From NCBI GenBank assembly GCA_004298325.1, contig SCUF01000425.1:1-35542 (forward strand): 35,542 nucleotides of DNA. The letters run 5' to 3'. Position numbers and translations under genes: made by a program. Under the pieces are notes generated by a model, which worked only from the letters and a program-made list of their open reading frames with translations, was not told the DNA's origin and did not search any database. This document shows, piece after piece, positions 19,474 to 35,542 of the stretch; position 1 is the first letter of the stretch; every line of letters starts with the position of its first letter. This DNA is from Betaproteobacteria bacterium (GTDB taxonomy: Bacteria > Pseudomonadota > Gammaproteobacteria > Burkholderiales > SG8-39).

Positions 19474-20216
19474 GTCAGGCCGTCGTAGAGCAGCTTCGCA
19501 CCCGTCAGCAACAGGAACGCATAGACCAGTCGATAGAAGAGCGTCTCGCTGACGCGCTTGTGCAGCCAGACGCCAAGCGCGACGCCCGCGACCCCGACCG
19601 GCGCGAGCGCCGCCGAGGTGAGCAGGTTCTGGGCGCTGAACAGTCCCAGCCACCAGTAAGGCAGAACCTTGGCCCAGTTGAGGCAGGCGAACAGCACCGC
19701 GACCGTTCCGACCAGCACGCTCGGCGCCAGCCGCAGCGGCAGCAGGTAGACGCTGAGGGGCGGCCCGCCAGAGTGGGCGATGAAACTCGTGAACCCCGAG
19801 AGCATCGCCCAGAATGCGCCCCTGGCGGCGGACGGACTTGCCGGAGCGGCGGCGGGGTTGCGCAGCAGCGTGCGCCAGAGCACGAACCCGATGGCCAGTA
19901 CACCGAGCAACAGGCGGATGCCGTCGCTGCTCAATTCGCGAAAGGCCAGCGTGCCGATCGCGGTGCCCACCAGTCCCGCCGGGAGCAGCACCTTGAGAAG
20001 GTCGCGGTTCCAGTGCCTGCGATAGGCCCAGACCGCACCCAGGTCCATCACCAGCAGGATAGGGAGCATGATCGCCGCGGCTTGTGCCGGCGCGATGGCG
20101 AGCGCCATCAGCGGCACCGTCACGATGCCGAAGCCGCCCGCGAAACCGCCCTTGGAAATGCCGAACAGCAGCACGCCCGGCACCGCGGCAAGCCAGAAAA
20201 GCGGGTCGGCGATCAA
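19470..20216 (-). CDS. TauE/SafE-family sulfite/anion exporter-like permease
   Basis: A 248-residue membrane protein with about eight helices in the two-repeat TauE/SafE layout. The first repeat has GISKGGFAGGFGIVTVPLMA, and the second has MLSGFTSFIAHSGGPPLSVYLL, the most conserved family signatures. Members export sulfite, sulfoacetate or other small organic anions, or take up related acids. The start is TTG at 20216, inside the hyuB stop (TTGA), so it is translationally coupled to HyuB. That link suggests a role with the hyuB substrate or product rather than with sulfur, but this is inference. Confidence 0.88.
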   Translation of the reverse strand: MIADPLFWLAAVPGVLLFGISKGGFAGGFGIVTVPLMALAIAPAQAAAIMLPILLVMDLGAVWAYRRHWNRDLLKVLLPAGLVGTAIGTLAFRELSSDGIRLLLGVLAIGFVLWRTLLRNPAAAPASPSAARGAFWAMLSGFTSFIAHSGGPPLSVYLLPLRLAPSVLVGTVAVLFACLNWAKVLPYWWLGLFSAQNLLTSAALAPVGVAGVALGVWLHKRVSETLFYRLVYAFLLLTGAKLLYDGLT

Positions 20217-21946
20217 TTCGCGCGCTTGGCGCTGCCGTCGGGCTCGAAGCGCACGCCGAAGAGCCGCTCGGCTTGCGCCCTCGTGTAATAGCCTCGCATG
20301 ACGTCGCGCGCGACCTTTGCCGGATCGCGCCGCAGCGGGTCGCCGTAACCGCCGCCACCCGGGGTCGAAACGCGGATCACGTCGCCCGGGCGCATCTGGA
20401 TGTCCTGGTCCTTCGACAGGTGGGGCGGACGATAGGTATTGCCGTTACGTTCGATCGCCACCTGGTTGACACCGCCGTCCGCGCCGCCGAGCGCGCCGAG
20501 GGGCCCGGTGCGCCCGTGATCCATGACCATCGATGCGCGCGCTTCGCCCCGCCGCACGCGGATGGCGTAGTTGACGCCGAAGCCGCCGCGCGCCTCGCCC
20601 GCGCCGCCGGAGCCCTCATGGACGGCGAATTCCTCGAACAGCACCGGGTAATACTGCTCCATCACCTCGATCGGCGGCATTTTCGAGATGCCGATGGTGG
20701 AGCAGCCGTTGGAAATGCCGTCGGAAATCGCGCTGCCGCCGTAACCGCCGCCGGTGAACAGGTACATCACGTAGGAGCGTCCCCGTTGCGGGTCGGTGCC
20801 GCCGATGGCCAGATTGCCCGAAGTCCCCGCCGGTGCCGCGAACAGCTCCTGCGGGATCGCCTGCGTGAGCGCGTTGAACACGGCCTCGGCGATGCGCTGG
20901 CTCACCTCCGCGGCGCAGCCGGACACCGGGCGCGGATACCGGGCGTAGAGAAACGTGCCCGCGGGCTCGGCGATCTTCAGCGGCTCGAAGGTGCCGGCGT
21001 TGATCGGCACGTCGGGGAACACGTGTTTGACCGCCAGGTAGACGGACGAAAACGTCGTCGCAATGACCGAGTTCATCGGGCCGCGGCAGGGGCGCGAGGA
21101 GCCGGCGAAATCGAATTCGAGGTCCTGCGCCGCCGTCTTCGTGACCTGCAGGCGGATGTGCAGCGGCTCGTCCACCACGCCGTCCGAATCCACGATCGAA
21201 TGGCCCGCATATGTCCCGGCGGGAATTCCGGCGATCTTGGCGCGCATCTGCTGCGCCGCGCGCTGGCGCAGTTCCGCGATCGCCCGCTCCACGGTGTCCG
21301 CACCGTAACGATCGAGGAGGGCGCCGAGGCGCTTCTCGCCGATGGCGAGCGCCGCGCCCTGCGCCTTGATGTCGCCGATGCGCTGGTCGGCGATGCGAAT
21401 GTTGGAAAGAATGATCGCCAGGATTTCCTCGTCCATCACGCCCTTCTTGTACAGTTTCACGGGCGGCAGCCGCAGCCCTTCCTGCTCCACCTCGGTGGCG
21501 TTGGCCGAGAATCCGCCCGGCACCATGCCGCCGAGGTCCGGCCAGTGCCCGGTGTTCGCCAGCCAGCACCACAGCTTGCCCTGGTAAAAGAACGGCTTCA
21601 CGAAACGCACGTCCATCAGATGCGTGCCGCCGAGGTAGGGGTCGTTGACGATGAACACGTCGCCCGGTGCGAGCGTCCAGCCCTTCGCGCGCACCTGCTC
21701 GATCACGCTGCGCGTGGAGAACTGCATGGTCCCCACGAACACCGGCAGGCCGAGTTCGCCCTGCGCGATGAGCGAGCCGTCCTCGCGCGAGTAGATGCCG
21801 TCCGAGCGGTCCATCCCCTCCGAGATGACGGGGGAAAACGCCGCGCGGCAGAAGGCGAGGTCCATTTCGTTGCAGACCTGCTGCAGGCCGTTCTGGATGA
21901 CGGCGAGGGTGATGGGGTCGAGGGGCGGGGTTTGCGCCGTTGCCAT
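20213..21946 (-). CDS. hyuB: Hydantoinase B/oxoprolinase family protein (HyuB)
   Basis: A 577-residue protein covering the whole HyuB domain: LDPITLAVIQNGLQQVCNEM, then VFIVNDPYLGGTHLMDV, GHWPDLGGMVPGG, DFAGSS, and GSGGAGEARGGFGVNYAIRV near the end. HyuB works together with HyuA in ATP-dependent opening of cyclic amides (hydantoins, 5-oxoproline-like lactams) in the cytoplasm. The matching hyuA is not adjacent but lies at 27281-29290. A plausible promoter ends seven bases before the ATG, so this gene may have its own leaderless transcript, besides read-through from the CAP gene upstream. The substrate is unknown. Confidence 0.92.
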   Translation of the reverse strand: MATAQTPPLDPITLAVIQNGLQQVCNEMDLAFCRAAFSPVISEGMDRSDGIYSREDGSLIAQGELGLPVFVGTMQFSTRSVIEQVRAKGWTLAPGDVFIVNDPYLGGTHLMDVRFVKPFFYQGKLWCWLANTGHWPDLGGMVPGGFSANATEVEQEGLRLPPVKLYKKGVMDEEILAIILSNIRIADQRIGDIKAQGAALAIGEKRLGALLDRYGADTVERAIAELRQRAAQQMRAKIAGIPAGTYAGHSIVDSDGVVDEPLHIRLQVTKTAAQDLEFDFAGSSRPCRGPMNSVIATTFSSVYLAVKHVFPDVPINAGTFEPLKIAEPAGTFLYARYPRPVSGCAAEVSQRIAEAVFNALTQAIPQELFAAPAGTSGNLAIGGTDPQRGRSYVMYLFTGGGYGGSAISDGISNGCSTIGISKMPPIEVMEQYYPVLFEEFAVHEGSGGAGEARGGFGVNYAIRVRRGEARASMVMDHGRTGPLGALGGADGGVNQVAIERNGNTYRPPHLSKDQDIQMRPGDVIRVSTPGGGGYGDPLRRDPAKVARDVMRGYYTRAQAERLFGVRFEPDGSAKRAN

Positions 21947-22878: not shown

Positions 22879-23523
22879 CTAGGCGGCCGGGGTGTAGCTC
22901 CGGTACAGCCGCAGGATCCATTCGCAGCTGCGCGTCAGTTTGCCGATCTTGCGCGACCAGTCGGTGCGCAGCGCCGCCTGCCAGTCCGGGTGCTGCGGCA
23001 CGCTTTCGTCCGCGAGGTCATAGAGCGCGACATAGCGCGGCTTGCCGCTGGGGTCGAAGAAGCGCCGCGCGCGCAGCACCCCCGGCACCCGAGAAAGCAG
23101 CGGCAGGTGCTCGTCGTCGTACCAGCGGTTGAATTCCGCCTCGTATTCCGGCGGTGCGTCGCCGATGGCGACGAACTGCGCGTGCGCCATCATGCTCGGC
23201 AGGGCTTCGCCCGGATTGATCTGCTCGCAGGCCCAGCGGCGAAACACCACCGTGCTGCCGAGGCTGCGCTGCGTCCACGCCGTCGGCATGGCAAGGCGCA
23301 GGCGGTAGGCGGCCGATTCGAGCACCGCGGGCGAGACGAGCTCGTAGGTCGCGAGGTACTTGCCTTCGCCCGGCTTCACATCCGCCACCCAGCGCCGCGC
23401 GGAGAGAAATCCGGGGATCGAAACCCGTTCGACGATGTGCTCGGTGTCGTACCAGGCGTTGAATTCCGCCTCCTGATCCTGGGGCGGTTCGGTGATCGTC
23501 AGCAGCAGACCGAAGCGGTTCAT
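22879..23523 (-). CDS. Tandem EthD/DUF4286-like dimeric alpha-beta barrel protein
   Basis: A 214-residue protein made of two related ferredoxin-like units. Each begins with a strand, has EAEFNAWYDTEHI or EAEFNRWYDDEHL, then SIPGFLSARRW or RVPGVLRARRF, and then YLATYEL or YVALYDL. This N-x-WY-D-x-EH pattern is common to EthD-like and similar small barrels that bind or convert small molecules. No catalytic role is known for this arrangement. The ATG at 23523 is 37 bases upstream of the CAP gene's region on the same strand, and the two may share a transcript. Adjacent plus-strand gene is divergent. Confidence 0.7.
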   Translation of the reverse strand: MNRFGLLLTITEPPQDQEAEFNAWYDTEHIVERVSIPGFLSARRWVADVKPGEGKYLATYELVSPAVLESAAYRLRLAMPTAWTQRSLGSTVVFRRWACEQINPGEALPSMMAHAQFVAIGDAPPEYEAEFNRWYDDEHLPLLSRVPGVLRARRFFDPSGKPRYVALYDLADESVPQHPDWQAALRTDWSRKIGKLTRSCEWILRLYRSYTPAA

Positions 23524-23566
23524 GATAGTCGTGATTCTAGCTGCAAGGCGCACGAGACTTGCGCCA

Positions 23567-23576
23567 TGTCATGACA
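23567..23576. promoter_or_regulatory. Perfect 10-bp palindrome in a divergent intergenic region
   Basis: TGTCATGACA is a perfect palindrome in the 116-base gap between the EthD-like gene and the DUF748 gene, the only shared control region of this pair. It could be a repressor operator. Perfect 10-mers arise by chance at low rate, so this is only a weak candidate. I see no clear -35/-10 pair for either gene. Confidence 0.2.
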
Positions 23577-23639
23577 GCGGCGGGGGGGCCTGTTAGGCTG
23601 GCGTGGTCAGTTGCGCACTCCGTTCGAAAGGCTGCCGCC

Positions 23640-26600
23640 ATGCAGACCTCCCAGTCGTCCATTGCCGCGCGTGCCGGCAGCATCGCCAGGGCGCCGCGCA
23701 CCCGCAAGATCCTGTGGTGGATCGCCGGCCTCGTCGCGGCGTTCGCCGCGATCGGCTTTCTCGTCGTCCCGCCGATCGCGAAATCGAATCTGGAAGAAGC
23801 GCTGTCGGCGGCGCTGCACCGCAAGGTGACGGTCGAAAAGGTGAGCGTCAACCCGTTCGTGCCATCGGCCACGCTGCGCGGTTTCCTGGTGCGCGAGCGC
23901 CAGGGCGATGCGCCGTTCGCGAGCTTCGACGAACTGCACGTCAACGTGGCATGGACTTCGATCTTTCGCCTGGCACCCGTGGTGGACGAAATCCGGCTGG
24001 CGAAGCCGCACCTGAGGGTGGTGCGCAACGCCGACCGGACGTACAACTTCCAGGACCTGATGGACGCGTTCCTCGCGCGCCCGAAGAGCAACGCGCCGGT
24101 GCCGAAATTCGCGCTGTTCAACCTCCAGCTGAACGACGGGCAGGTCGATTTCGATGACCAGGCCGAAAAGGAAAAGCATTCGCTGACCGAGTTGCGGATC
24201 GGCATACCGTTCGTTTCGAGCCTGCCCGCGCATCGCGAGATCAAGGTCCTGCCGGAGCTGACGGCGAAACTCAACGGCGCGGCGCTCGGCGTCAAGGGCG
24301 AGAGCCTGCCGTTCCAGGACACGCACGTCACGGCCGTGAACGTGAATCTCGACGCCTTCGATCTCACGCGGCTGGTGGATTACCTGCCGTTCGAGCCGGG
24401 CGCCAGGCTGCGCTCGGCGCTGCTCGACGCGCGCCTCGTGATCGCCTTCGAGCAGCCCCCGGGCAAGGCGCCGCAGCTCACGCTGCGCGGCGGCACCGCG
24501 GTGAAGCAGCTCGATCTGCGCGACGCCGAGGACCGCCCGCTGCTCGCCTGGCAGCGCCTGGGCGTCGAGATCGGCGCGATCGAACCGCTCGCGCCGCGCG
24601 TGGCCCTGAAGAGCGTGGAGCTCGACGGCGTCGACGTGCGCGTGCGGCGCGACAAGTCCGGCGCGCTGAATCTCGCGCGCATCGTGCCGTCCGCGAAATC
24701 TGCTGCGGCGCCCGAGCCGCGCAAGGCGACGGGCGCGCCACTCATGGCGCTGAAGATCGAGCGCCTGGCCCTCAAGGCAGCCAAGCTCAGTTTTACCGAC
24801 CAGACGACCACACCGGCGTTTGCGACGGCGCTGGAAGACGTGCAGCTCGAAGCGGCGCATCTCGACCTCGCGAAGGACAAGCGCTCGGAATGGACCCTGG
24901 CTGCGCGCAGCGACGCGGGCGAGTCGGTCAAGCTCGCGGCCGGCGCGGTGGCCGATCCGCCTGCGGTCGACGGGCGCCTCGACATTGCAGGCGTGAAACT
25001 GAAGCGCTATCAGCCCTACGTGAACGGCGCGGCGGATCTCGAGCTGGACGACGGGCAGCTCGACCTGGGACTCGCATTCAAGTGGATCGGCGGCGCCGCG
25101 CAGAAAGGCCAGGATCTCAAGGTCTCGGACCTGGCGCTGACGCTCAAGAGCCTGCGCGCGCGGCTGCCGGGCGAGAAGCAGCCGTTCGCGCGGCTGGCGT
25201 CGCTCGAAATGAAGGGCGCCGCCGCCGATCTCGCCGCGCAGACCGTCAACCTCGGCGAAATCGCCGTGCGCGAGCTGACGGCCAGCCTGCGCCGCGAGAA
25301 GAACGGGCGGCTCAACGTAGAGCGCATCGCGCGGGCCGGGAAAGCCGGGGCTGCTTCTGCCAAAGCCTCCGGCTCGCCCTGGCGCATCGAACTTGGACAA
25401 CTGTCGCTGGAGCGTGGCTCGCTGACCTTGGAAGATCAGGCGATCGGCGGCGAGCCGGTGCGGATCAGTGTCGCGCCGCTGCAGCTGAAGGCGCAGAAAT
25501 TCTCCACCGCCAGGGGACAGCGCGGCACGGTCAGCCTGCAGGCGACGATCAACAAGACCGGTACGCTCGCCGTCAGCGGACCGCTTGCGCTCGATCCGCT
25601 CGCCGGCACCCTGAGCGTCACCGCGCGGTCCATCGGTTTCGTGCCGCTGCAGCCCTACATCGATGACAGGGTCAACTTCGCGCTGACTTCGGGCGCAGTG
25701 TCGGCGAAGGGGACGGCATCCTTCGCGATGCCGCCCGGCGGCGCGCTCCGGGCATCGTACAAGGGCGATCTCGGCGTCACGGATTTCGCCTCGGTCGACA
25801 AGCGCCTGACGCAGGATCTGCTGAAGTGGAAGACGCTGTCGCTCGGCGCGATCGATTTCAACCTGGAACCGTTGCAGGTTTCGCTCGACGAGATCGCGCT
25901 GGCGGATTTCTACAGCCGGATCATCCTGGCGGCGGATGGGCGCCTGAACCTGCAGGATCTCGTCGTCGCGCCGGGCGCGGCCCCCGACGCAGCCGTGGAA
26001 AAACCGCAATCCGCGGCCGCCAAGCCGGAGGCTCCGGTGCCGGTGGCGCGCGCAAAGCCGCCCGCGGTGCAGCCGCAGGCCGCGCTGCCGCAGAACCTGC
26101 GCATCGGCAAGATCACGTTGCAGGGCGGCAACGTCAATTTCAGCGATTTCTTCATCAAGCCGAACTACACCGCCAACCTCACCGGCGTCGGCGGCGTGGT
26201 GACAGAGATGACGCCGCAGAAGGCGGGCGACGTCGAATTGCGCGGCAAGATCGACCATGCGGCGCCGGTCGAGATCCTCGGCAGCGTGAACCCGCTCGCG
26301 GCCGACCTGTTCCTCGACATCAGGGCGAGCGCGAAGGACATCGAACTGCCGTCGCTATCGCCCTATGCGGTCAAGTACGCGGGTTACGGCATCGCGCGCG
26401 GCAAGCTCTCGATGAACGTCAAGTACCGCATCGAGAACCGCAAGCTCACTGCGGACAACAACATCTACCTCGATCAGCTCACGCTCGGCGAGCGGGTGGA
26501 GAGCCCCACGGCCACCACGCTTCCGGTGACGCTCGCAGTGGCGTTACTGAAGGACCGCAACGGCGTGATCGACATCAACCTGCCGATCTCGGGCTCGCTC

Positions 26601-27278
26601 GACGATCCGCAATTCAGCCTCGGCAGCATCATCGTCAAGGTGATCGTCAACCTGATCGTCAAGGCGGTCACGGCGCCGTTCGCGCTGATCGGATCGCTGT
26701 TTGGCGGCGGCGAGGAGCTTTCCTACCTAGAGTTTGCGCCCGGGCTGGCGAGGCTCGGCGGCAGCGAGGCAGGCAAGCTCAGGAACCTCGCCAAGGCCCT
26801 GATCGAGCGTCCGGGACTCAGGCTGGACATCTCCGGCCGCGCCGATCCGGCGGCGGATCGCGAAGGGCTGAAACGCGCCGCGATCGACCGCAAGGTGAAG
26901 GCGCAGAAGTTCAACGAGCTGCGGCGCGAAGGCAATGCGCCGGCGTCCGCCGACGCCGTGACGGTGGCGCCCGGCGAATACGAGAAATACCTGAAGCGCG
27001 CCTACGGCGAGGAAAAGTTTGCCAAGCCGCGCAACGTCATCGGCTTTGCCAAGGACCTGCCGGTGGCGGAAATGGAGAACCTGATGCTGGCGAATACGCC
27101 GGTGACGGAGGAAGACCTTCGCCTGCTGGCCAACGCGCGCGCGCAGACCGCCAAGGAGTGGCTGGTGGGGGAGGGCAAGGTGCCTGCGGAGCGCATCTTC
27201 ACGGTGACGCCCAGGCTCACGGCCGAGGGGATCAAGGACAAGGGCCAGCCGACCCGCGCCGATTTCGCGCTGAAATAG
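23640..27278 (+). CDS. Large AsmA/DUF748-family envelope protein
   Basis: A 1212-residue protein with one N-terminal membrane helix (ILWWIAGLVAAFAAIGFLVV, about residues 26-45), followed by a very long, mostly beta-stranded part facing the periplasm. It has the repeated pattern of AsmA/DUF748 proteins (VEKVSVNPFVPSATLRGFLV, LNDGQVDFDD, LDIAGVKLKRYQPYVN, FGGGEELSYLEFAPG). The C-terminal LIERPGLRLDISGRADPAAD segment is typical of DUF748. Related AsmA-like proteins bridge the membranes and are thought to move phospholipids, though DUF748 itself is unproven. The start is ATG at 23640 with AAAGG eight bases before. A Pro/Ala-rich linker lies at about residues 780-820. It stands alone between two minus-strand groups. 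Confidence 0.88.
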   Translation: MQTSQSSIAARAGSIARAPRTRKILWWIAGLVAAFAAIGFLVVPPIAKSNLEEALSAALHRKVTVEKVSVNPFVPSATLRGFLVRERQGDAPFASFDELHVNVAWTSIFRLAPVVDEIRLAKPHLRVVRNADRTYNFQDLMDAFLARPKSNAPVPKFALFNLQLNDGQVDFDDQAEKEKHSLTELRIGIPFVSSLPAHREIKVLPELTAKLNGAALGVKGESLPFQDTHVTAVNVNLDAFDLTRLVDYLPFEPGARLRSALLDARLVIAFEQPPGKAPQLTLRGGTAVKQLDLRDAEDRPLLAWQRLGVEIGAIEPLAPRVALKSVELDGVDVRVRRDKSGALNLARIVPSAKSAAAPEPRKATGAPLMALKIERLALKAAKLSFTDQTTTPAFATALEDVQLEAAHLDLAKDKRSEWTLAARSDAGESVKLAAGAVADPPAVDGRLDIAGVKLKRYQPYVNGAADLELDDGQLDLGLAFKWIGGAAQKGQDLKVSDLALTLKSLRARLPGEKQPFARLASLEMKGAAADLAAQTVNLGEIAVRELTASLRREKNGRLNVERIARAGKAGAASAKASGSPWRIELGQLSLERGSLTLEDQAIGGEPVRISVAPLQLKAQKFSTARGQRGTVSLQATINKTGTLAVSGPLALDPLAGTLSVTARSIGFVPLQPYIDDRVNFALTSGAVSAKGTASFAMPPGGALRASYKGDLGVTDFASVDKRLTQDLLKWKTLSLGAIDFNLEPLQVSLDEIALADFYSRIILAADGRLNLQDLVVAPGAAPDAAVEKPQSAAAKPEAPVPVARAKPPAVQPQAALPQNLRIGKITLQGGNVNFSDFFIKPNYTANLTGVGGVVTEMTPQKAGDVELRGKIDHAAPVEILGSVNPLAADLFLDIRASAKDIELPSLSPYAVKYAGYGIARGKLSMNVKYRIENRKLTADNNIYLDQLTLGERVESPTATTLPVTLAVALLKDRNGVIDINLPISGSLDDPQFSLGSIIVKVIVNLIVKAVTAPFALIGSLFGGGEELSYLEFAPGLARLGGSEAGKLRNLAKALIERPGLRLDISGRADPAADREGLKRAAIDRKVKAQKFNELRREGNAPASADAVTVAPGEYEKYLKRAYGEEKFAKPRNVIGFAKDLPVAEMENLMLANTPVTEEDLRLLANARAQTAKEWLVGEGKVPAERIFTVTPRLTAEGIKDKGQPTRADFALK

Positions 27279-27280
27279 GC

Positions 27281-29290
27281 TCAGACCTCGACCAGCAGAT
27301 TGCCCAGGGCGTCGACGCGCGCCACGTTGCCCGGCTCGAGCACCGTGGTGCAGTCGAGCTGCTCGATGATGGCGGGGCCCTCGATTTCAGCTGGCACGCT
27401 GTCGCGTTGATACACGCGCGTATCCTGCCAGCCACCCTCAAACCAGACTTTTCGCGATCGCGGCGCGTGATGCGCACCGCGATCGCAGAGAACCTTGAGA
27501 TCGAGGCGCGGGCGCAGACCAATGACGGCCGTGTGCAGGTTCACGAGCACCGCGCGGATCTCGGGGAGCTCGACGCCGAAGCGGTCCCAGTAAGCGCGGT
27601 CAAAAAGCTGCTGCAGCGCATCGCGCGTCACCTCGGGTCCCGGCAGCGCCACGCTCAGGATGTGGCTCTGGCCCTGGAACTGCATGTCGGCCGAGTAGAG
27701 CAGGCGTACGCCTTGCACGGCGATGCCTTCGCGCTCGAGAAGCTTGCGGCCCTCGGCCACCTGCGTCTCGAGCAGCGCCTTCACCTGCGCCATGTCGAGC
27801 GTCGCGACCGGGCGGTTCACGGTGTTGACGAAATCGTGGCGCAGGTCAGCGACCACGCATCCAAGCGCGTTGGTGATGCCGGGACGCGCCGGAATCAGCA
27901 GCCTCGGGATGCCCAGCTCGCGCGCCAGCGCCGCCGCATGCAGCGGGCCCGCGCCGCCGAAGGGAAACAGCACGAAGTCGCGCGGATCGTGCCCGCGCGC
28001 GAGCGAGACCATGCGGATCGCGCCCGCCATCCTGTCGTTCGCGATGCGCACGATTGCAGCGGCTGTCGCCACCGCATCGAGGCCGAGTGCGCCGCCGAGC
28101 TTTTCCTCGAGGATGCGTTCGATCTTCTTCGTGTCGGCGCGACCGTCCACGCCGAGCAGCCTTTCCGCGTTCAGTCGCCCCAGCACGAGGTTGGCATCAG
28201 TGATCGTGGGTTCGGTTCCGCCACGGCCGTAGCAGATCGGCCCGGGATGGGCACCGGCGCTCCGCGGCCCCACGCGCAGCATGCCGTCCTCGCCGAGAGA
28301 CGCGACCGAACCGCCGCCCGCGCCGATCGTGTGCACGTCTACCATCGGCACGTGCACCGGCATCGCGTATTCGATTTCCAGTTCCGAGGAGACCTGCGGC
28401 ACGCCGTCCAGGATCAGGCCGACGTCGGTCGAGGTGCCGCCCATGTCGTAGGTGATGGCGTGCGCAAAGCCGGCCGCTGCCGAGGAATAGGCCGAGGCGA
28501 TCACGCCCGAGGCGGGTCCCGACATCACGGTGTTGACCGCGGTCTCGGCGGCGAGCGCGGCCGACACCGTGCCGCCGTTGCCCTGCATCACCAGCAGGTC
28601 GTTGGCGAAGCCGCGCTGCCGCAGCTCGTCGGCCAGCTTCTGCAGGTAGCGGTCGAGAATCGGCTGCACCGAGGCGTTCACGGCGGCGGTGACGCCGCGC
28701 TCGTATTCGCGGTATTCCGACAGGATGGTGTGGCCTGCAGTGACGTAGCGGTTCGGCCAGTGCGCGCGCGCGATGGCCAGGGCCCGTTGCTCGTGCGCCG
28801 GGTTGAGGTAGCTGTGCAGGAAGTGGATCACCAGCGATTCGCAGCCCGCGGCCGCCAGCCGCCGCACGGCGTCGTGCACCGCGGCTTCGTCGAGCGGCAC
28901 GACCACCTCGCCTTCGGCGTCCATGCGCTCGGCAACCTCCAGCCGCAGCTCGCGCGGTATCAGCGGTTCGAACCAGCCCCGCAGGCCGTAGGCGCTCGGA
29001 CGCGTGCGGCGCCCGAGCTCGAGCACGTCGCGAAAGCCCTTCGTGGTCACGATGCCGGTCTTCGCCAGCTTGCGCTCGAGCAGCGCGTTGGTCGTCGTGG
29101 TGGTGCCGTGTACCACCAGCGCCAGCTCGCGCAAGGGAATGCGCGTCTGCTCCAGGGCGCGGATCACGCCGAACGCCTGGTTGTCGACCGTGGTCGGGAC
29201 CTTGGCCAGCCGCGCCTCACCGCTCGCCGGATCGAGCGCGATCAGATCGGTGAAAGTGCCGCCTACGTCGACGCCGGCGATCCAGCTCAT
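27281..29290 (-). CDS. hyuA: Hydantoinase A/oxoprolinase family ATPase (HyuA)
   Basis: A 669-residue protein with the HyuA start GVDVGGTFTDLIALDPASGE (ATP-binding fold of the acetate kinase/actin type), then VVHGTTTTTNALLER, NGGTVSAALAAETAVNTVMSG, ITYDMGGTSTDVGL, TIGAGGGSVAS, LFPFGGAGPLHA and a normal C-terminal domain. It activates the ring amide carbonyl with ATP while HyuB completes the hydrolysis. ATG at 29290 follows the stop of the thioredoxin-like gene by 12 bases, making it the last gene of the molybdenum-hydroxylase operon. It is two bases from the convergent DUF748 gene. The partner hyuB is found in a different operon 5.3 kb away. Substrate unknown; a lactam made by the upstream enzymes is an appealing idea. 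Confidence 0.92.
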   Translation of the reverse strand: MSWIAGVDVGGTFTDLIALDPASGEARLAKVPTTVDNQAFGVIRALEQTRIPLRELALVVHGTTTTTNALLERKLAKTGIVTTKGFRDVLELGRRTRPSAYGLRGWFEPLIPRELRLEVAERMDAEGEVVVPLDEAAVHDAVRRLAAAGCESLVIHFLHSYLNPAHEQRALAIARAHWPNRYVTAGHTILSEYREYERGVTAAVNASVQPILDRYLQKLADELRQRGFANDLLVMQGNGGTVSAALAAETAVNTVMSGPASGVIASAYSSAAAGFAHAITYDMGGTSTDVGLILDGVPQVSSELEIEYAMPVHVPMVDVHTIGAGGGSVASLGEDGMLRVGPRSAGAHPGPICYGRGGTEPTITDANLVLGRLNAERLLGVDGRADTKKIERILEEKLGGALGLDAVATAAAIVRIANDRMAGAIRMVSLARGHDPRDFVLFPFGGAGPLHAAALARELGIPRLLIPARPGITNALGCVVADLRHDFVNTVNRPVATLDMAQVKALLETQVAEGRKLLEREGIAVQGVRLLYSADMQFQGQSHILSVALPGPEVTRDALQQLFDRAYWDRFGVELPEIRAVLVNLHTAVIGLRPRLDLKVLCDRGAHHAPRSRKVWFEGGWQDTRVYQRDSVPAEIEGPAIIEQLDCTTVLEPGNVARVDALGNLLVEV

Positions 29291-29302
29291 GCCGGCAAGC
29301 CT

Positions 29303-29710
29303 TCAGCGCTTCGCTTGCGCGCGCGTCGCGGATCCCGCGACGACCTGCTTCAGGCGCGGCAGGAACTCCGTGCTGTAGCCGCCCGTGCCGTAAGCGCTGA
29401 ATGTCACGCGGCCATCCACCGCGAGCAGGAAGCGCGGCACGCCACGGCTCGGCCCGATCTGCTCGTAGACCCAACGGAACTCGGCCGGATAGTGCCGCGC
29501 CTCGATCGGGCGGCGCAGCGTCTCGCCCTGGACCTCGACGAAGCGGAACGAGCGCGCCTCGGGCGAAGCGAGCAGTGCGGGGCGCGACTGCGCCTCCCAG
29601 TGCCGGCAGTAGGGGCAGTCAGGGGTGCCGAGGTAGAGCACGACGATGTCCGCCGCGTTCGAGGGCAGCGCTATCGCCAGTGCGAGCAGCGCGATCGCAA
29701 GTCGCTTCAT
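29303..29710 (-). CDS. Exported thioredoxin-like protein with CPYC motif
   Basis: A 135-residue protein with a signal peptide (MKRLAIALLALAIALPSNAA), then VVLYLGTPDCPYCRHWEA, a thioredoxin-type active site with Cys32 and Cys35. A strand and GPSRGVPRFLLAVDG, with the usual cis-Pro, follow in the right order, and then YGTGGY. CPYC is the glutaredoxin-type motif. It most likely works in the periplasm as a thiol reductant or oxidant. Its ATG overlaps the UPF0280 stop (ATGA), so it is coupled to a metabolic operon, which is odd for a general redox protein; it may serve maturation of an exported partner. Confidence 0.82.
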   Translation of the reverse strand: MKRLAIALLALAIALPSNAADIVVLYLGTPDCPYCRHWEAQSRPALLASPEARSFRFVEVQGETLRRPIEARHYPAEFRWVYEQIGPSRGVPRFLLAVDGRVTFSAYGTGGYSTEFLPRLKQVVAGSATRAQAKR

Positions 29711-30570
29711 GAGCGCGGCAGTGTAAAGGCTTTGACGATCGGCTCCAAACGCGGCGGAGCGCACACCGCGGTGCTGCCCTGCAGCGCGAGGTAGGCCGCC
29801 TCGATGAGATCCGCCGCGGCCATCCGTGCCGCGGTTTCGAGACCGTTGCGCAGGGCATGCCGAACCACGGCGTCCGGCAATGGCCCGACTTCCACCGTGA
29901 CCAACCGATCGCCGAGGTCCGAGTCTGCCTTCACGGCCTGGGCCGGCAGACGACGGATCGCCGGGTGCTCGACGTTGACAGCGTTTGCGACCAGCGTCGC
30001 CGCGGCGTCGGCCGCCGCAGCGCTGCGCGCGAGCACCGTTACGGCGTCGGCGATACCGAGCGATTGCGAGCGGCCGCGCCATCCCGAGGTCGCGATGCCG
30101 CAGGGAGAATCGATCCTGAGCGACGCATCGATCGCCGGCCGATGCGGGTCGTTCACGATCCCCGCGTCCAGCCGCTCGCCCGGCGCCACGTGCACCGCGA
30201 TGTCGCCGCCATCGTTCACATAGGCCTTGGCGAGCGCATTCCCGGAAAGCATCGCCTGCAGCATCTCGTCGGCCACCGCGCCCGCGACCGCTGCCATGGG
30301 CGTGACGAACACTGCGCGATGCGGCCACACGGCGGCGACCATGCGGCGCGCCACGGGGCCGCGGGCGAGGGGATGGGCGTCGCCAACGGGCGAACGCAGC
30401 AGTTCGAGCTCGGCCACCAGTACTTCCAGGATGTCCTGGAACCGTGCCGAGGCCTGCGCGTAGGCGCGTTCGATCTGCACCGCGCCACCCCAGGCCTCGA
30501 TGACGAGATCGATCGGTCCGTGCTGCAGGTGCAGCCGCCCGTCAGGCAGGCGCGCGCTCAGCGCGGCCAT
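29707..30570 (-). CDS. UPF0280 family protein (ApbE-like fold)
   Basis: A 287-residue protein of the UPF0280 family, related in fold to ApbE flavin transferases. Visible family parts are ERAYAQASARFQDILEVLVA, then VTPMAAVAGAVADEML, AYVNDGGDIAVHV, CGIATSGWRGRSQSLGIADA and TLVANAVNVEHPAI. The N-GGD-IA stretch corresponds to the substrate loop of ApbE-type proteins. No function has been shown for the family to my knowledge. It starts inside the end of the reductase-like gene (13-base overlap), and in other bacteria I recall UPF0280 genes close to 6-hydroxynicotinate reductase genes, so a helper role for that enzyme, perhaps flavin attachment, is possible. That link is inference. Confidence 0.83.
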   Translation of the reverse strand: MAALSARLPDGRLHLQHGPIDLVIEAWGGAVQIERAYAQASARFQDILEVLVAELELLRSPVGDAHPLARGPVARRMVAAVWPHRAVFVTPMAAVAGAVADEMLQAMLSGNALAKAYVNDGGDIAVHVAPGERLDAGIVNDPHRPAIDASLRIDSPCGIATSGWRGRSQSLGIADAVTVLARSAAAADAAATLVANAVNVEHPAIRRLPAQAVKADSDLGDRLVTVEVGPLPDAVVRHALRNGLETAARMAAADLIEAAYLALQGSTAVCAPPRLEPIVKAFTLPRS

Positions 30571-31949
30571 GGCTCGAAGCGGTGCCTGGTCCTGGCGAGG
30601 GCTTCGTCGAGGGAGGTGATCTCGCTCAGGTGACCGCCCATCGCGGCATAGGCCTGCAGCGGAACCGTGAATTCGATCGGCAGCACGAGCGCCGGCGTCG
30701 GCACGTAGCCGAAGGAACGCTCGGGCATGCGCAGCACGTCCACCATCAGCGTGATGCCGCCCCCGGGCCAGACGTAGGTGGGCGCGCCGCCGCAGGTGAC
30801 GCGCGTGACGCGATCCTTCACCGAGCGCGTCAGGCGCACCGGGTTTTCGGTGACGCCCGCGCGCAGCGACCCGCCCGCGCCGCCCATGAAAAGTACCGTG
30901 CACAGCGCCGCTTCGCAGTTCTCGGCGATCCGCTCGACCACCCTGCGCACCGGTTCCGGCATCGGGGCTAGCTGCGGTTTCAGCTGCGCGTCCAGCACGA
31001 ACCATTCTGCGTCTTCGCCGGTCGTCGAGACCATGAGGAGCCGCAGGCCCGGCCAGGCCGTCCCGGGTTCCACTTTCTCGATGATCGAGAGCGGATCGGT
31101 GATGTCCGTGCCGCCCCAGCCGAGACCCGGTTCCGCGACCTTGAAGTAGCGCCCGGGCGTCGACCTGCGGCCGCGCACCCGGATGCCGGCGGGAGGCATG
31201 TCGAGAAAGCGCCCCGCCTGGTGCTCGGTCAGCACGCCCGTGATGTGATCGTCCACCACGATCACCTCGTCGGCGTGGCCGTGCCATTGCTTGGCGAAGA
31301 TGCCGATGGTCGCGCTGCCGCAGCCTACGCGCATGCGCTCCTCGCGTTCGCCGTTCACGACCGGCGCTGCTCCCGCCTGCACGACCACGCTGGACCCGCC
31401 GTCGATGCAAAGCTCCACCGCGTCGCGGTTGGCGAGCCGCAGCATCGCATCGCAGGTGACGACGCCTTCCTTCTTCGACCCGCCGGTGAGGTGCCGCACG
31501 CCGCCCAGCGCGAGCATCTGCGAACCGTATTCTGCGGTGGTGACGTGCCCGACCTGCTCGCCGGCCACACGCACCGGCGCCTGCTCCGGTCCGAGGAAGC
31601 GATCGGTGTCGATCTTCAGCTTGAGCCCGCAATACGAGAAGATCCCTTCGGTGACCACCGTCACCATGTCGACGCCATCCTGCTTCGAGGCAACGATGAA
31701 CGGGGCGGGCTTGTAGTCGGGATAGGTCGTGGTGGCGCCGAGGCCGGTGAGAAACGGTACCGCCTTCGCGCCGCGCTCCAGGAGCAGCAGCGGATCGACG
31801 CGCACCAGCCTGCCGTTCTCGTTCGCGTAGCGGTCGCAGGCGCCCGCCTGGCCGCGCCGGATGCGACACAGCACGGGGCAGGCGTCGCAGCGCACGACGT
31901 CACCCGTCAGGGGTTCGCTACTTTCTGCGGCGTCTTCAGGATCGCGCAC
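30558..31949 (-). CDS. hnr: 6-hydroxynicotinate reductase-like Fe-S protein
   Basis: A 463-residue protein of the family annotated as 6-hydroxynicotinate reductase, first known from nicotinate fermentation, where it reduces the hydroxylated pyridine ring to a tetrahydro-oxo product. Four cysteines near the N-terminus (Cys21, Cys24, Cys28, Cys38 in CDACPVLCRIRRGQAGAC) form a likely Fe-S site, followed by a long conserved body (SYCGLKLKIDTDRFLGPEQA, GGVRHLTGGSKKEG, VGCGSATIGIFAKQWHGHAD, FMGGAGGSLRAGVTENPVR, CGGAPTYVWPGGGIT). The start is GTG at 31949, 14 bases into the end of the molybdenum hydroxylase gene, showing coupling. The reductant is not encoded beside it. The family match is good; the real substrate may be another hydroxylated N-heterocycle. 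Confidence 0.8.
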   Translation of the reverse strand: MRDPEDAAESSEPLTGDVVRCDACPVLCRIRRGQAGACDRYANENGRLVRVDPLLLLERGAKAVPFLTGLGATTTYPDYKPAPFIVASKQDGVDMVTVVTEGIFSYCGLKLKIDTDRFLGPEQAPVRVAGEQVGHVTTAEYGSQMLALGGVRHLTGGSKKEGVVTCDAMLRLANRDAVELCIDGGSSVVVQAGAAPVVNGEREERMRVGCGSATIGIFAKQWHGHADEVIVVDDHITGVLTEHQAGRFLDMPPAGIRVRGRRSTPGRYFKVAEPGLGWGGTDITDPLSIIEKVEPGTAWPGLRLLMVSTTGEDAEWFVLDAQLKPQLAPMPEPVRRVVERIAENCEAALCTVLFMGGAGGSLRAGVTENPVRLTRSVKDRVTRVTCGGAPTYVWPGGGITLMVDVLRMPERSFGYVPTPALVLPIEFTVPLQAYAAMGGHLSEITSLDEALARTRHRFEPWPR

Positions 31950-34671
31950 TGTTCAGGGCTTCCAGCAGGCGATGCGGCAGCACGGGCACCTGCCGCATGC
32001 GCACGCCCGCGGCATGCTCGATCGCGCCGAGGATGGCGGGCGCGGTCGGGATCAATCCGGGCTCGCCGACGCCCTTGGCCCCGTACGGTCCGAGCGGCTC
32101 GGCATCCTCGACCAGCAGGCATTCCATCTGCGGAACGTCGCCCACGGTAGGGATCAGGTAGTCGTGCAGGTTTTCGGTGCGTCCCGGCACGTATTCTTCC
32201 ATCAGCGCGAGGCCCAGGCCCTGCACCGCGCCGCCCTGGATCTGGCCCTCGACCTGGATCGGATTGATCGCGCGCCCGACGTCGTGCGCGGCGTACAGGC
32301 GCAGCACCCGAGTCGTGCCGAGTTCCAGGTCGACCTCCACCGTGGCGATCTGCGCCGCGAAGGCGTAAGTCGCGTAGGGCGTGCCCTGGCCGTTCTCGTC
32401 CGCGGCGGTCGTCGGCGGATCGAAGCGGCCCTCGCCGCGGAGGTCTTCCCGCAGGGCGACGGCGTGCCGGATGCCGCCCTTGCGGAAGACGATCGAGCCG
32501 CCTTCGAGCGACAGGCGGTAATTGCGGTCGCGCCACTCGCCTTCGGGAGCACCCGCGAAGGCGAAGAGTTTTCGGCGCAGATCCAGGCCGGCGAGCTCGG
32601 CGGCCTTGCCGGAGATGAACGCCTGGCGCGACGCCGAGGTCTTTCCGGCATCGGCCGTGCGGTCCGTGTCGCCCATGACCCAGCGGAACTGCGACATCGG
32701 CAGCCCGAGCGCGTCGGCCGCGATCTGCACCAGGATCGTGTTCGAGCCCTGGCCGATGTCAACTGCACCGTTGTAGAGGGTGAGGGTGCCGTCGCGCGCA
32801 AGGCCGACGCGCAGGGTCGAGGGATTCGAGAGCGACGTGTTGCCGATGCCGTACCACATGCATCCGATGCCGGTGCCGTGCTTCAGGTGTCCGCCGGAGC
32901 CGTTGAATCGGGCGCAGGCGAGCAGTTCGCGCTCCCAATGGGGCCGCAGCGCATCCAGGCACTCGGCGAGCCCCGCCGAATGCTCGAGCACCTGCCCGGT
33001 GGCCGTGCGATCGCCCGCCTTGAGCGCGTTGCGGCGCCGGATCTCCAGCCGGTCAATGCCGAGCTTCGCGGCGAGCGCATCCATCAGTGCTTCGTGCGCG
33101 ATCGCGACCTGCGGCACGCCGAAACCGCGGAATGCGCCCGACGGATGGCAGTGCGTGAAATAGGCGCGTCCACGAGCGTGCACGTTCGGCACGCCATACG
33201 GGCCGCTCGCGTGAATCGGTACCCGCGTGGCCACGGTGGGCCCCCAACTCGCGTAGGCGCCGGTGTCGAAGACCGCGTCGACCTCGCACGCGAGGAGCCT
33301 GCCTTCGGCGTCGCAGCCGAACTTCGCACGGATCCGCGCCGGGTGGCGCTTGGTGCTCGAGGCCATGCTTTCCGGGCGCGTGTAAACGCAGGCGACCGCT
33401 CGGCCGGTGAGCCACGCGCCGAGCGCGATGAGCGGCTGCACCGAAAGGTCCAGCTTGCCGCCGAATCCGCCGCCGCAGGCGCTCGGCACGATGCGCACCT
33501 GCTCGGGCCTGAGACGCAGGATGAGCGCGACCTCGTCGCGGTCCATGTACGGCGTCTGCGTGGTGACGTGAATCTCGACGCGGTTGCCGACGCGCCGTGC
33601 CCAGCCGGCTTCGGGTTCGAGGTAGGCGTGCTCGACGAATGCCGTTTGATACGTGTCCTCGGCGACGCAGGCGCAATCCGCAAATCCCTGGTCGACATCG
33701 CCTTTTCGCACGCCGCCATCGAGCAGCAGATTGTCCGGCCTGCCGGGCTGCACCGGATGCGCGCGCGGCGCCATGGCGGCATCCAGCCCCATCACCGGCG
33801 GCAGCGGCTCCCATCGCACGGGAAATTCGGCGGCATCGAACGCCTCGATCGCGGCGCGCGTGCCGATCAGGGCCGCGACCGCTTCGCCGCGGTAGCGTGC
33901 CTCGGCCTCGGCCAGCACCGGCTGATCCTTGACGTTGGGATAGATCCCGAAGCCGTTCGACGGCACGTCGCCCGCCGTCAGTACGCGGACGATTCCTCGG
34001 CGCGGCTTCAGCTTGCCGATACGAAAACGCGCGCGATGGTGCGGCGAGCGGATGACCTTCAGCCAAAGCGCATCGGCGGGGATCGCGTCGGCGGCGTAAC
34101 GCTCGCCGCCGGTCAGCTTCGGAATGCCGTCCACCTTGCCGGCGCGCGCGCCAACGGCTTGCCCTGCCTCGGGTGGCAGGGGCAGCGTCTGCCGTTCACG
34201 GGACGCGTCGAGCACAGCCTCCACGATCTTCTGATAACCGGTGCAACGGCAGAGAACGCCGCCCAGCGCATCCCTGACCTGCTGCTCGTCCGGGGCGCGG
34301 ATCCTGCCGAGAAGATCCGCCGCCGCCATCAGCATTCCCGGGGTACAGATGCCGCACTGTGCCGCGCCGTGCGTCTGGAACGCGACCTGGAGCGCGGCCA
34401 GGCGCCCACCCTTGTTCAGTCCCTCGACCGTGACCACGCTGCGGCCTTCGACCTGCCCCAGCGAAGTCAGGCAGGAGCACACCTGCCTGCCATCGAGCAG
34501 CACGGTGCAGGCGCCGCAATCTCCCGCGTTGCAGCCGATCTTGGTGCCCGTGAGCCCGAGCTCGTCGCGCAGCACGTCGGCCAGCCGCGAATTGCGCGCG
34601 GCTTTCGCGTGCACGCTGCGGCCATTGAGCGTGAACCGTACGGCTGCAACGTCGGTGTGCGCGCGGTTCAT
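31936..34671 (-). CDS. Fused [2Fe-2S]-molybdopterin hydroxylase (xanthine dehydrogenase/aldehyde oxidoreductase family)
   Basis: A 911-residue fusion. Residues about 10-165 carry two [2Fe-2S] domains: KIGCNAGDCGACTVLLDG, then QVCSC, and later CGICTPGMLM with LCRCTGY. The rest is the molybdopterin large subunit: GKVDGIPKLTGGERYAAD, ACGGGFGGKLDLSVQ, SGAFRGFGVPQVAIA, DIGQGSNTILVQIAADALG, and YGAKGVGEPGLIP with the catalytic Glu near residue 870. This matches the Desulfovibrio MOP layout (about 907 residues) but with a separate FAD subunit encoded just upstream. It hydroxylates an aromatic N-heterocycle, purine or aldehyde with water-derived oxygen. ATG at 34671 overlaps the FAD-subunit stop. It is followed by the reductase-like gene, which argues for a heterocycle. 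Confidence 0.92.
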   Translation of the reverse strand: MNRAHTDVAAVRFTLNGRSVHAKAARNSRLADVLRDELGLTGTKIGCNAGDCGACTVLLDGRQVCSCLTSLGQVEGRSVVTVEGLNKGGRLAALQVAFQTHGAAQCGICTPGMLMAAADLLGRIRAPDEQQVRDALGGVLCRCTGYQKIVEAVLDASRERQTLPLPPEAGQAVGARAGKVDGIPKLTGGERYAADAIPADALWLKVIRSPHHRARFRIGKLKPRRGIVRVLTAGDVPSNGFGIYPNVKDQPVLAEAEARYRGEAVAALIGTRAAIEAFDAAEFPVRWEPLPPVMGLDAAMAPRAHPVQPGRPDNLLLDGGVRKGDVDQGFADCACVAEDTYQTAFVEHAYLEPEAGWARRVGNRVEIHVTTQTPYMDRDEVALILRLRPEQVRIVPSACGGGFGGKLDLSVQPLIALGAWLTGRAVACVYTRPESMASSTKRHPARIRAKFGCDAEGRLLACEVDAVFDTGAYASWGPTVATRVPIHASGPYGVPNVHARGRAYFTHCHPSGAFRGFGVPQVAIAHEALMDALAAKLGIDRLEIRRRNALKAGDRTATGQVLEHSAGLAECLDALRPHWERELLACARFNGSGGHLKHGTGIGCMWYGIGNTSLSNPSTLRVGLARDGTLTLYNGAVDIGQGSNTILVQIAADALGLPMSQFRWVMGDTDRTADAGKTSASRQAFISGKAAELAGLDLRRKLFAFAGAPEGEWRDRNYRLSLEGGSIVFRKGGIRHAVALREDLRGEGRFDPPTTAADENGQGTPYATYAFAAQIATVEVDLELGTTRVLRLYAAHDVGRAINPIQVEGQIQGGAVQGLGLALMEEYVPGRTENLHDYLIPTVGDVPQMECLLVEDAEPLGPYGAKGVGEPGLIPTAPAILGAIEHAAGVRMRQVPVLPHRLLEALNSARS

Positions 34672-35480
34672 GCGAGCTGGTCGAGCAGGCGCTGTACCAG
34701 CACCAGGACCGCGTCCCTGCGGTACTGCACGCTGCCGCGCACGTCGTCGAGGGGGGCGAGGGGCGCAAGGTGTTCCGGCCTGACGCGAAAGTCGCCGCGC
34801 AGCAGGTCCTGCTCGAGTCCGGCAAGACGCCGCGCCACTGGCGAGCAGGCGCCGACCGCCACGCGCGCGGCCGTGATCTCGCCGCCATCGCGCTCGATCA
34901 CTGCGGCGACCATCGCGATCGAGATCACGAGGTAGCGCCGCGCGCCAAGCTTGAGGAAGCCGCTCGCCGCCGCGTGCCGGGGCTTGGGAACGAGGATCGC
35001 CGTCACCAGTTCCCCGGGCTCGAGCGCGGTGCGGCGCGGCCCGAGAATGAATTCGCCCAGCGGCAGGCGCCGCCGCGCTCCGGCGCGGGCAATCTCGACC
35101 GACGCGTCCAGCGCCAGCAACGGCGGCACGCCGTCTGCGGCTGGCGAGGCGTTGCAAAGATTTCCGGCGACCGTCCCCGCGTTCTGGATCTGCCGGCCGC
35201 CGATTTCGCGCGCGGCGAGCTTGAGGCCGTGGAACGCGGGCGGCAGCTTCGCTTCGATCAACTCGCTCCAGGTGGTCGTCGCCCCGATCCGCCAGTCTGC
35301 GGCGACCTCCGCGATGCCGCGAAGCTCGTGCAGCGCAGTGACATCGAGCACGTTGGTCGCGGGCGGGGCACCGACCCGCGCGGGATAGAAATCCGTGCCT
35401 CCGGCGAGCACCGTCCGGGCATCGCGCGCAAGCAGCTCCAGCGCGTCTTCGATGCGGGTCGGCCGGGCGTACGCGGACAT
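34668..35480 (-). CDS. FAD-binding subunit of molybdenum hydroxylase (CoxM-like)
   Basis: A 270-residue medium subunit. FAD-contact motifs are TVLAGGTDFYP (first), ATTTWSELIEAKLPPAFHGL, and IQNAGTVAGNLCNASPAADG, then PPLLALDASVEI. The CO-dehydrogenase flavoprotein C-terminal domain follows (FLKLGARRYLVISIAMVAAV). It passes electrons from the [2Fe-2S] centres to NAD or a quinone. ATG at 35480 starts MSAYARPTRIEDAL, the usual N-terminus; a longer open frame exists upstream but adds nothing family-like. It is the first gene of the operon, and its stop overlaps the ATG of the fused hydroxylase (ATGA). Confidence 0.92.
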   Translation of the reverse strand: MSAYARPTRIEDALELLARDARTVLAGGTDFYPARVGAPPATNVLDVTALHELRGIAEVAADWRIGATTTWSELIEAKLPPAFHGLKLAAREIGGRQIQNAGTVAGNLCNASPAADGVPPLLALDASVEIARAGARRRLPLGEFILGPRRTALEPGELVTAILVPKPRHAAASGFLKLGARRYLVISIAMVAAVIERDGGEITAARVAVGACSPVARRLAGLEQDLLRGDFRVRPEHLAPLAPLDDVRGSVQYRRDAVLVLVQRLLDQLA

Positions 35481-35528: not shown

Positions 35529-35542
35529 ATGCATCCGAAAAC
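35529..35542 (+). CDS. Possible start of a divergent gene, cut by the window end
   Basis: ATGCATCCGAAAAC reads M-H-P-K and then leaves the window. A TGCGATAAT stretch (35511-35519), like an extended -10 element, lies just before it. Nothing more can be said about the product. Confidence 0.25.

Follow-up and report, generated by a model that had tools for sequence, protein, structure and literature searches.

Nicotinate-type gene cluster with a predicted ATP-dependent HyuAB hydrolase in the place of enamidase

Gene content of the window

The window analysed here is the entire 35,542-nt contig C55 (GenBank SCUF01000425.1) of the betaproteobacterial metagenome-assembled genome (MAG) G000 (GCA_004298325.1; 88% complete), so that nothing upstream of position 35542 can be read. 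It carries a compact run of six minus-strand genes, encoding the flavin adenine dinucleotide (FAD) and fused molybdopterin (Mo) subunits of a molybdenum hydroxylase, a 6-hydroxynicotinate reductase-like protein (Hnr), UPF0280, a thioredoxin-like protein and HyuA (Table 1). The positions and tight junctions that the original prediction gave for these genes are borne out when the junctions are read from the DNA: the FAD and Mo subunit genes overlap by 4 bases (ATGA), the Mo subunit gene and hnr by 14, hnr and the UPF0280 gene by 13, and the UPF0280 and thioredoxin-like genes by 4 (ATGA), followed by a 12-base gap to hyuA. The possibility that HyuA is a lone orphan was rejected, as hyuB lies on the same strand at a distance of 5.3 kb; both subunits are present in the window, as in the ATP-dependent lactamase superfamily.

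Table 1. Genes of the window discussed in the text; family calls are from Pfam and NCBIfam
Feature	Position	Strand	Basis and remarks
FAD subunit of Mo hydroxylase, CoxM type	34668-35480	-	FAD_binding_5 134.9 bits, CO_deh_flav_C; start may be 35534
Fused [2Fe-2S] + molybdopterin subunit, likely nicotinate 6-hydroxylase	31936-34671	-	Fer2_2, MoCoBD_1, MoCoBD_2, one chain
6-hydroxynicotinate reductase-like protein (Hnr)	30558-31949	-	Annotated relatives; alignment A3
UPF0280, ApbE-fold, putative flavin transferase for Hnr	29707-30570	-	NF003322 / PRK04334.1-2, 360 bits (cut-off 290)
Thioredoxin-like protein, CPYC, likely signal peptide (by eye)	29303-29710	-	Sequence
HyuA, ATP-binding subunit of proposed ATP-dependent lactam hydrolase	27281-29290	-	Hydantoinase_A 307 bits
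DUF748/AsmA-like gene between hyuA and hyuB	23559-27278	+	DUF748
224-aa two-repeat protein	22879-23553	-	tblastn 82% to locus L003, 61% to locus L008; repeat by eye
HyuB, metal-site subunit, presumed HyuA partner	20213-21946	-	Hydantoinase_B 546.6 bits

No Pfam or NCBIfam model matches Hnr above its cut-off, and the protein is therefore named after its annotated relatives. In particular, 26 plasmid matches share 60-69% identity with it, and 17 of them (60-67% identity) bear the annotation 6-hydroxynicotinate reductase, an enzyme of the pathway through 1,4,5,6-tetrahydro-6-oxonicotinate (THON). The closest named neighbours of G000 in the Hnr tree are MAGs of Betaproteobacteria.

The predicted HyuAB pair resembles the two-subunit enzymes CapAB (caprolactamase), OplAB and N-methylhydantoinase HyuAB, and shares their ATP-site and metal-ligand residues. 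Residues D8, T12, D15, K30, D282 and T286 of the window HyuA align with CapA Asp11, Thr15, Asp18, Lys32, Asp295 and Thr299, which an excerpt of PMC8453981 describes as the probable ATP site, and D289 aligns with CapA Asp302; residues D46, H109, D112 and H134 of HyuB align with CapB Asp41, His99, Asp102 and His124, which bind metal according to the same excerpt. Moreover, OplAB hydrolyses the six-membered delta-valerolactam in an ATP-dependent manner (PMC11033972, in part). HyuA scores 483.9 bits against the caprolactamase alpha equivalog NF050156, below its cut-off of 1000, and belongs to an orthologous group that is distinct from caprolactamase and tied to Hnr. The window HyuB is 66-91% identical to the HyuB proteins found near HyuA in relatives, and G000 has five further HyuB-family genes that are 28-37% identical to it.

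A constant core with exchangeable partners

Across 135 loci (the nearest 80 of 291, 4 plasmid loci and 51 genome stretches), the recurrent gene order is FAD subunit, Mo subunit, Hnr, UPF0280, AA_synth (PF06684), a branched-chain-type transporter and HyuA. UPF0280 directly follows Hnr in 112 of the 123 loci with enough sequence; of the other 11, 4 carry it at a different position and 7 lack it within the locus. Hnr and the adjoining UPF0280 are the constant core of the loci examined, and its recurrence indicates that the six-gene grouping is more than chance. The original prediction of the six genes as a unit holds less well, as the transporter is commonly placed just before hyuA in relatives and the thioredoxin-like gene is present in only 4 of the 135 loci; this gene, rejected as a part of the pathway, is a lineage-specific passenger outside the conserved set.

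In some loci an amidohydrolase occupies the place of HyuA, and the copy in locus L067 matches the enamidase structure PDB 2VUN with 343 bits. The distribution of the two candidate ring openers was determined in 52 distinct Hnr-positive genomes, the window's included, identified at E ≤ 1e-60 among genomes of the order (19 of 200; 22 at a looser E ≤ 1e-3), the class (4 of 369) and the phylum (32 of 398). The hit lists are bimodal, with HyuA hits of at least 853 bits and then at most 642, and enamidase hits of at least 430 bits and then at most 279; orthologs were called at 853 and 430 bits or more, respectively. HyuA is found in 29 of the 52 genomes and enamidase in 25; 27 have HyuA only, 23 have enamidase only, 2 have both (G670 and G738) and none has neither, where independence would lead one to expect about 14 genomes carrying both and 12 carrying neither (Fisher p = 8.5e-13, a value that ignores kinship). 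In 80 Hnr-negative genomes both openers stay below threshold (best hits of 596 bits for HyuA and 283 for enamidase), a control that is not closely matched, with only 11 of the 80 coming from families that contain Hnr.

A second sample comprised 40 further genomes whose locus alone showed neither opener. Among them, 22 have HyuA, 14 have enamidase, none has both and 4, all of them MAGs, have neither; these counts include three truncated hits accepted on identity despite bit scores below threshold (HyuA in G944, 538 bits and 84%, and in G962, 755 bits and 69%; enamidase in G948, 393 bits and 55%). Overall, exactly one opener is present in 86 of 92 genomes, and no locus of 134 contains both. In the 88% complete assembly of G000 itself, no enamidase match is found at E ≤ 1e-40, and HyuAB is present instead; the two other sampled genomes of its family that carry Hnr, G103 (97% complete) and G010 (100% complete), likewise have HyuA and no enamidase. 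Two of the three outcomes that the original prediction had named as fatal to it, an enamidase just beyond the window and a HyuA confined to this strain, were therefore not observed, the latter because HyuA accompanies these genes in many genomes; for the third, a Mo hydroxylase that groups with purine or aldehyde enzymes, the database matches given below point both ways.

Phylogenies place the two openers in alternation. The Hnr tree has 134 rows (82 with HyuA, 46 with enamidase, 2 with both and 4 with neither; 44 of these opener labels rest on the locus alone, and L138 and L145 were left out for low coverage), and on it the opener needs about 12 changes, at least 5 of them forced by starred (well-supported) branches. 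FastTree phylogenies of the Mo subunit and of UPF0280 give 7 changes, at least 4 of them forced, and 9 changes, at least 2 of them forced. As companions of Hnr, the HyuA ortholog and enamidase almost exclude each other and have taken each other's place several times. Further, Hnr is found on 26 plasmid records, from Sulfitobacter, Rhizobium, Neorhizobium, a Comamonadaceae bacterium and others, and plasmid carriage may help explain the exchange of modules.

The first-step enzyme is exchangeable as well. Xanthine dehydrogenase (XDH)-type genes, sought only in the stretch beside Hnr, occur in 32 of the 52 genomes, namely in the window and in 31 of the 51 stretches, and NicB, sought in the genomes at 891 bits or more with a query from locus L117 named nicotinate dehydrogenase subunit B by its submitters, occurs in 18. 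The two are near-exclusive, with both present in one genome (G809) and neither in three (G075, G029 and G388). NicB accompanies HyuA in 3 genomes and enamidase in 15, and nine genomes of family f256 combine NicAB, Hnr and enamidase; we take this family to be Bradyrhizobium-like, which is a guess. At the level of loci, all four combinations of first-step enzyme and opener occur: XDH-type with HyuA (39), XDH-type with enamidase (12), NicB with enamidase (13) and NicB with HyuA (2). The same Hnr combined with either hydroxylase and either opener suggests one intermediate, and the presence of NicAB among the first-step enzymes points to nicotinate.

The hyuB gene was surveyed, at 60% identity or more, in the 32 loci whose sequence extends 2 kb or more past hyuA. 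It lies on the same strand within 100 bases of hyuA in 19 of them, and on the same strand 1.1-5.4 kb from hyuA in 4, two of which (L039 and L125) are from the same genome. Locus L117, from Neorhizobium sp. NCHU2750, combines hnr with hyuAB.

Proposed ring-opening route and its alternatives

The cluster probably specifies nicotinate breakdown by way of the reductive 6-hydroxynicotinate branch, in which ATP-dependent HyuAB would take over the role of enamidase. In the proposed route, the XDH-type Mo enzyme would hydroxylate nicotinate at C6; Hnr, by analogy with its family, would reduce 6-hydroxynicotinate to THON with electrons from ferredoxin or an NAD(P)H reductase; HyuA would activate the ring lactam with ATP, and the metal site of HyuB would hydrolyse it. 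The resulting enamine would then lose ammonia to form 2-formylglutarate, the product that enamidase makes in one go. According to an excerpt of PMC9304392, enamidase opens THON and deaminates it to 2-formylglutarate; HyuAB would cleave the same C-N bond, with ATP. Comparative genomics strongly supports the order put forward in the original prediction, namely hydroxylation, reduction and then ATP-driven opening by HyuAB instead of enamidase; its suggestion of a substrate other than nicotinate has lost ground, as in many genomes the first enzyme is of the NicAB type instead.

The excerpts of PMC3511419 and PMC9304392 describe the nicotinate fermentation of Eubacterium barkeri and an aerobic Azorhizobium/Bradyrhizobiaceae cluster, which share with the window a putative nicotinate hydroxylase, Hnr and the predicted passage through THON to hydrolytic opening; an ABC transporter is likewise found in the window's relatives. 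In contrast to the systems in those excerpts, the window has HyuAB and no enamidase, and its 2Fe-2S and Mo domains are fused. A non-homologous replacement of the ring opener inside a known pathway is a well-supported reading of the sequences, in which the reaction itself is predicted and the place of HyuB is less certain in one clade, the Reyranella type. The open-licence PubMed Central (PMC) literature yielded no link between hydantoinase and nicotinate, 6-hydroxynicotinate or enamidase, and the titles and opening abstract lines of its nicotinate-pathway papers contain no hydantoinase link.

The tentative assignment of the first step draws on the Mo subunit, which matches chains A, B and D of nicotinate dehydrogenase 3HRD with 274, 222 and 122 bits (618 as a rough total), chains A and C of 1RM6 with 449 bits and xanthine dehydrogenase with 286 bits. 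It retains the Glu of its VGEP motif and has Leu after GGGFGGK, where Leu or Ile occurs in all relatives in which the motif search matched (83 of 100). The active-site Glu that xanthine dehydrogenase has at this position is absent from the window protein.

Several observations weigh against this nicotinate route. The best single PDB chain for the Mo subunit is aldehyde oxidoreductase 1DGJ (402 bits); the NCBIfam models that score highest on it, none reaching its cut-off, are those for selenium-dependent xanthine dehydrogenase (572 bits, cut-off 830) and aldehyde oxidoreductase (536 bits, cut-off 1100); and the FAD subunit is marginally closer to xanthine dehydrogenase 1JRO (88 bits) than to 3HRD (80 bits). 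The window Hnr lacks a segment (at window positions 31740-31770, near residue 66) that is kept in all 32 of the other aligned rows; in the nearest relative, L002, the segment comprises 18 residues, or 54 bases in frame, its length varies among relatives, and the gap is either a real deletion or an assembly collapse. The exclusion of openers is broken by the two genomes with both and the four MAGs with neither, and among the 29 genomes with HyuA, 13 have assemblies that do not place it within 15 kb of Hnr. A tree-aware pair test found 5 concordant, 0 discordant and 3 undecided pairs (p = 0.0625), and cannot reach 0.05 because independent events are so few. Finally, no hyuB was found on the same strand in 9 of the 32 surveyed loci, 6 of which (L152, L193, L194, L197, L199 and L201) belong to the Reyranella-type clade; in G686, of the same clade, no close HyuB was found in the 1.22 of 5.44 Mb searched, which contained a 37% identical paralog only. 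The HyuA-HyuB pairing is general, with this clade, in which hyuB is missing nearby, an exception so far.

Among the alternatives, it is unlikely that HyuA-type clusters degrade another N-heterocycle, such as a substituted pyridine or pyridone, with the opener differing by substrate. Caprolactamase and hydantoinase relatives do act on varied lactams; however, the openers interleave on the Hnr and Mo-subunit trees, and NicAB-type genes occur with either opener, as the two pairings at loci L117 and L118 illustrate. A little less probable still is that HyuA, with or without HyuB, acts elsewhere in the pathway, for instance on an amide or lactam formed later, and that an unrecognised co-travelling enzyme opens THON. 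The missing nearby HyuB of one clade would fit this explanation, as would the conserved cluster proteins without known function, AA_synth and UPF0280, and two AA_synth copies are commoner in enamidase loci (15 of 25) than in HyuA loci (2 of 48). Both proteins are nevertheless found with both openers and do not explain the opener swap, and AA_synth is not seen in the loci nearest the window (L002-L009). An ordinary enamidase route, with its gene in the missing part of the MAG and HyuAB as a bystander, is very improbable: G000 is incomplete and the contig ends just upstream, but all three of the Hnr-positive family members sampled, one of them from a complete genome, have HyuA and no enamidase.

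If replacement of enamidase by HyuAB is correct, ATP-free and ATP-consuming enzymes have repeatedly been swapped for one ring-opening step, a natural role would emerge for a large set of HyuAB proteins whose current annotation is hydantoinase, and nicotinate use could be predicted in genomes that lack enamidase.

Hnr, UPF0280 and neighbouring genes

The predicted structure of UPF0280 (predicted local distance difference test score, pLDDT, of 93.8) matches the DUF375 structure 2O34 at Z 20.1, followed only by the ApbE, FmnB and Ftp flavin transferases (Z 14 to 17) and then by uricase (8.2); Foldseek agrees with the ApbE-family matches. These transferases resemble UPF0280 in fold over about 200 to 220 residues at about 11-18% identity. 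D188 and T192 are invariant in UPF0280 within an ADxxxT stretch, which presumably has a counterpart in ApbE. As an almost constant neighbour of Hnr, UPF0280 is a good candidate to supply or attach the flavin of Hnr and probably installs or delivers it, speculative as this is. The open-licence PMC literature yielded nothing on UPF0280.

Residues C21, C24, C28 and C38 of Hnr are invariant in alignment A3. The E. barkeri Hnr is an iron-sulfur flavoprotein. Sequence searches up to E 1 found no PDB relative of Hnr, and its moderate model (pLDDT 77) has no convincing fold match, the best being the glycine cleavage T-protein 1WOS at Z 4.0; this does not amount to a new fold. T367, in the motif LR[AS]GVT, is a candidate flavinylation Thr. 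The GSAT motif (212-214) was rejected as the flavin site, as T214 varies to Ala.

A more far-reaching proposal, which we regard as tentative and rather doubtful as a whole, is that HyuAB is an ATP-dependent THON hydrolase which, in Proteobacteria, has traded places with the ATP-free enamidase on at least five occasions, and that UPF0280/DUF375 is an ApbE-type transferase dedicated to the flavinylation of Hnr, perhaps at T367. If true, a single pathway would keep Hnr and UPF0280 as its constant core while the modules for hydroxylation, electron donation and ring opening could be exchanged, and the uncharacterised UPF0280/DUF375 family would gain a testable function.

The likely electron donor varies among clusters, with a GltD-like oxidoreductase in some and a ferredoxin-NADP reductase in others (for example, L003:1789-5298, L018:5237-6133 and similar), and both in L130. 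In Reyranella-type loci an enolase-superfamily gene comes after hyuA, and at L013:3370-5653 the neighbours of the cluster include genes for a family III CoA-transferase and an ornithine cyclodeaminase-like protein; the CoA-transferase would fit a glutarate-to-glutaryl-CoA outlet.

Between hyuA and hyuB, the window contains the DUF748 gene on the other strand, the gene for the 224-aa protein and a CAP-domain gene. The DUF748 gene has no tblastn match at E ≤ 1e-10 in the relatives' loci compared. A counterpart of the gene for the 224-aa protein is found between hyuA and hyuB in L003, and another comes after hyuA in L008; by eye, the internal repeat of this protein looks like a dimeric alpha-beta-barrel.

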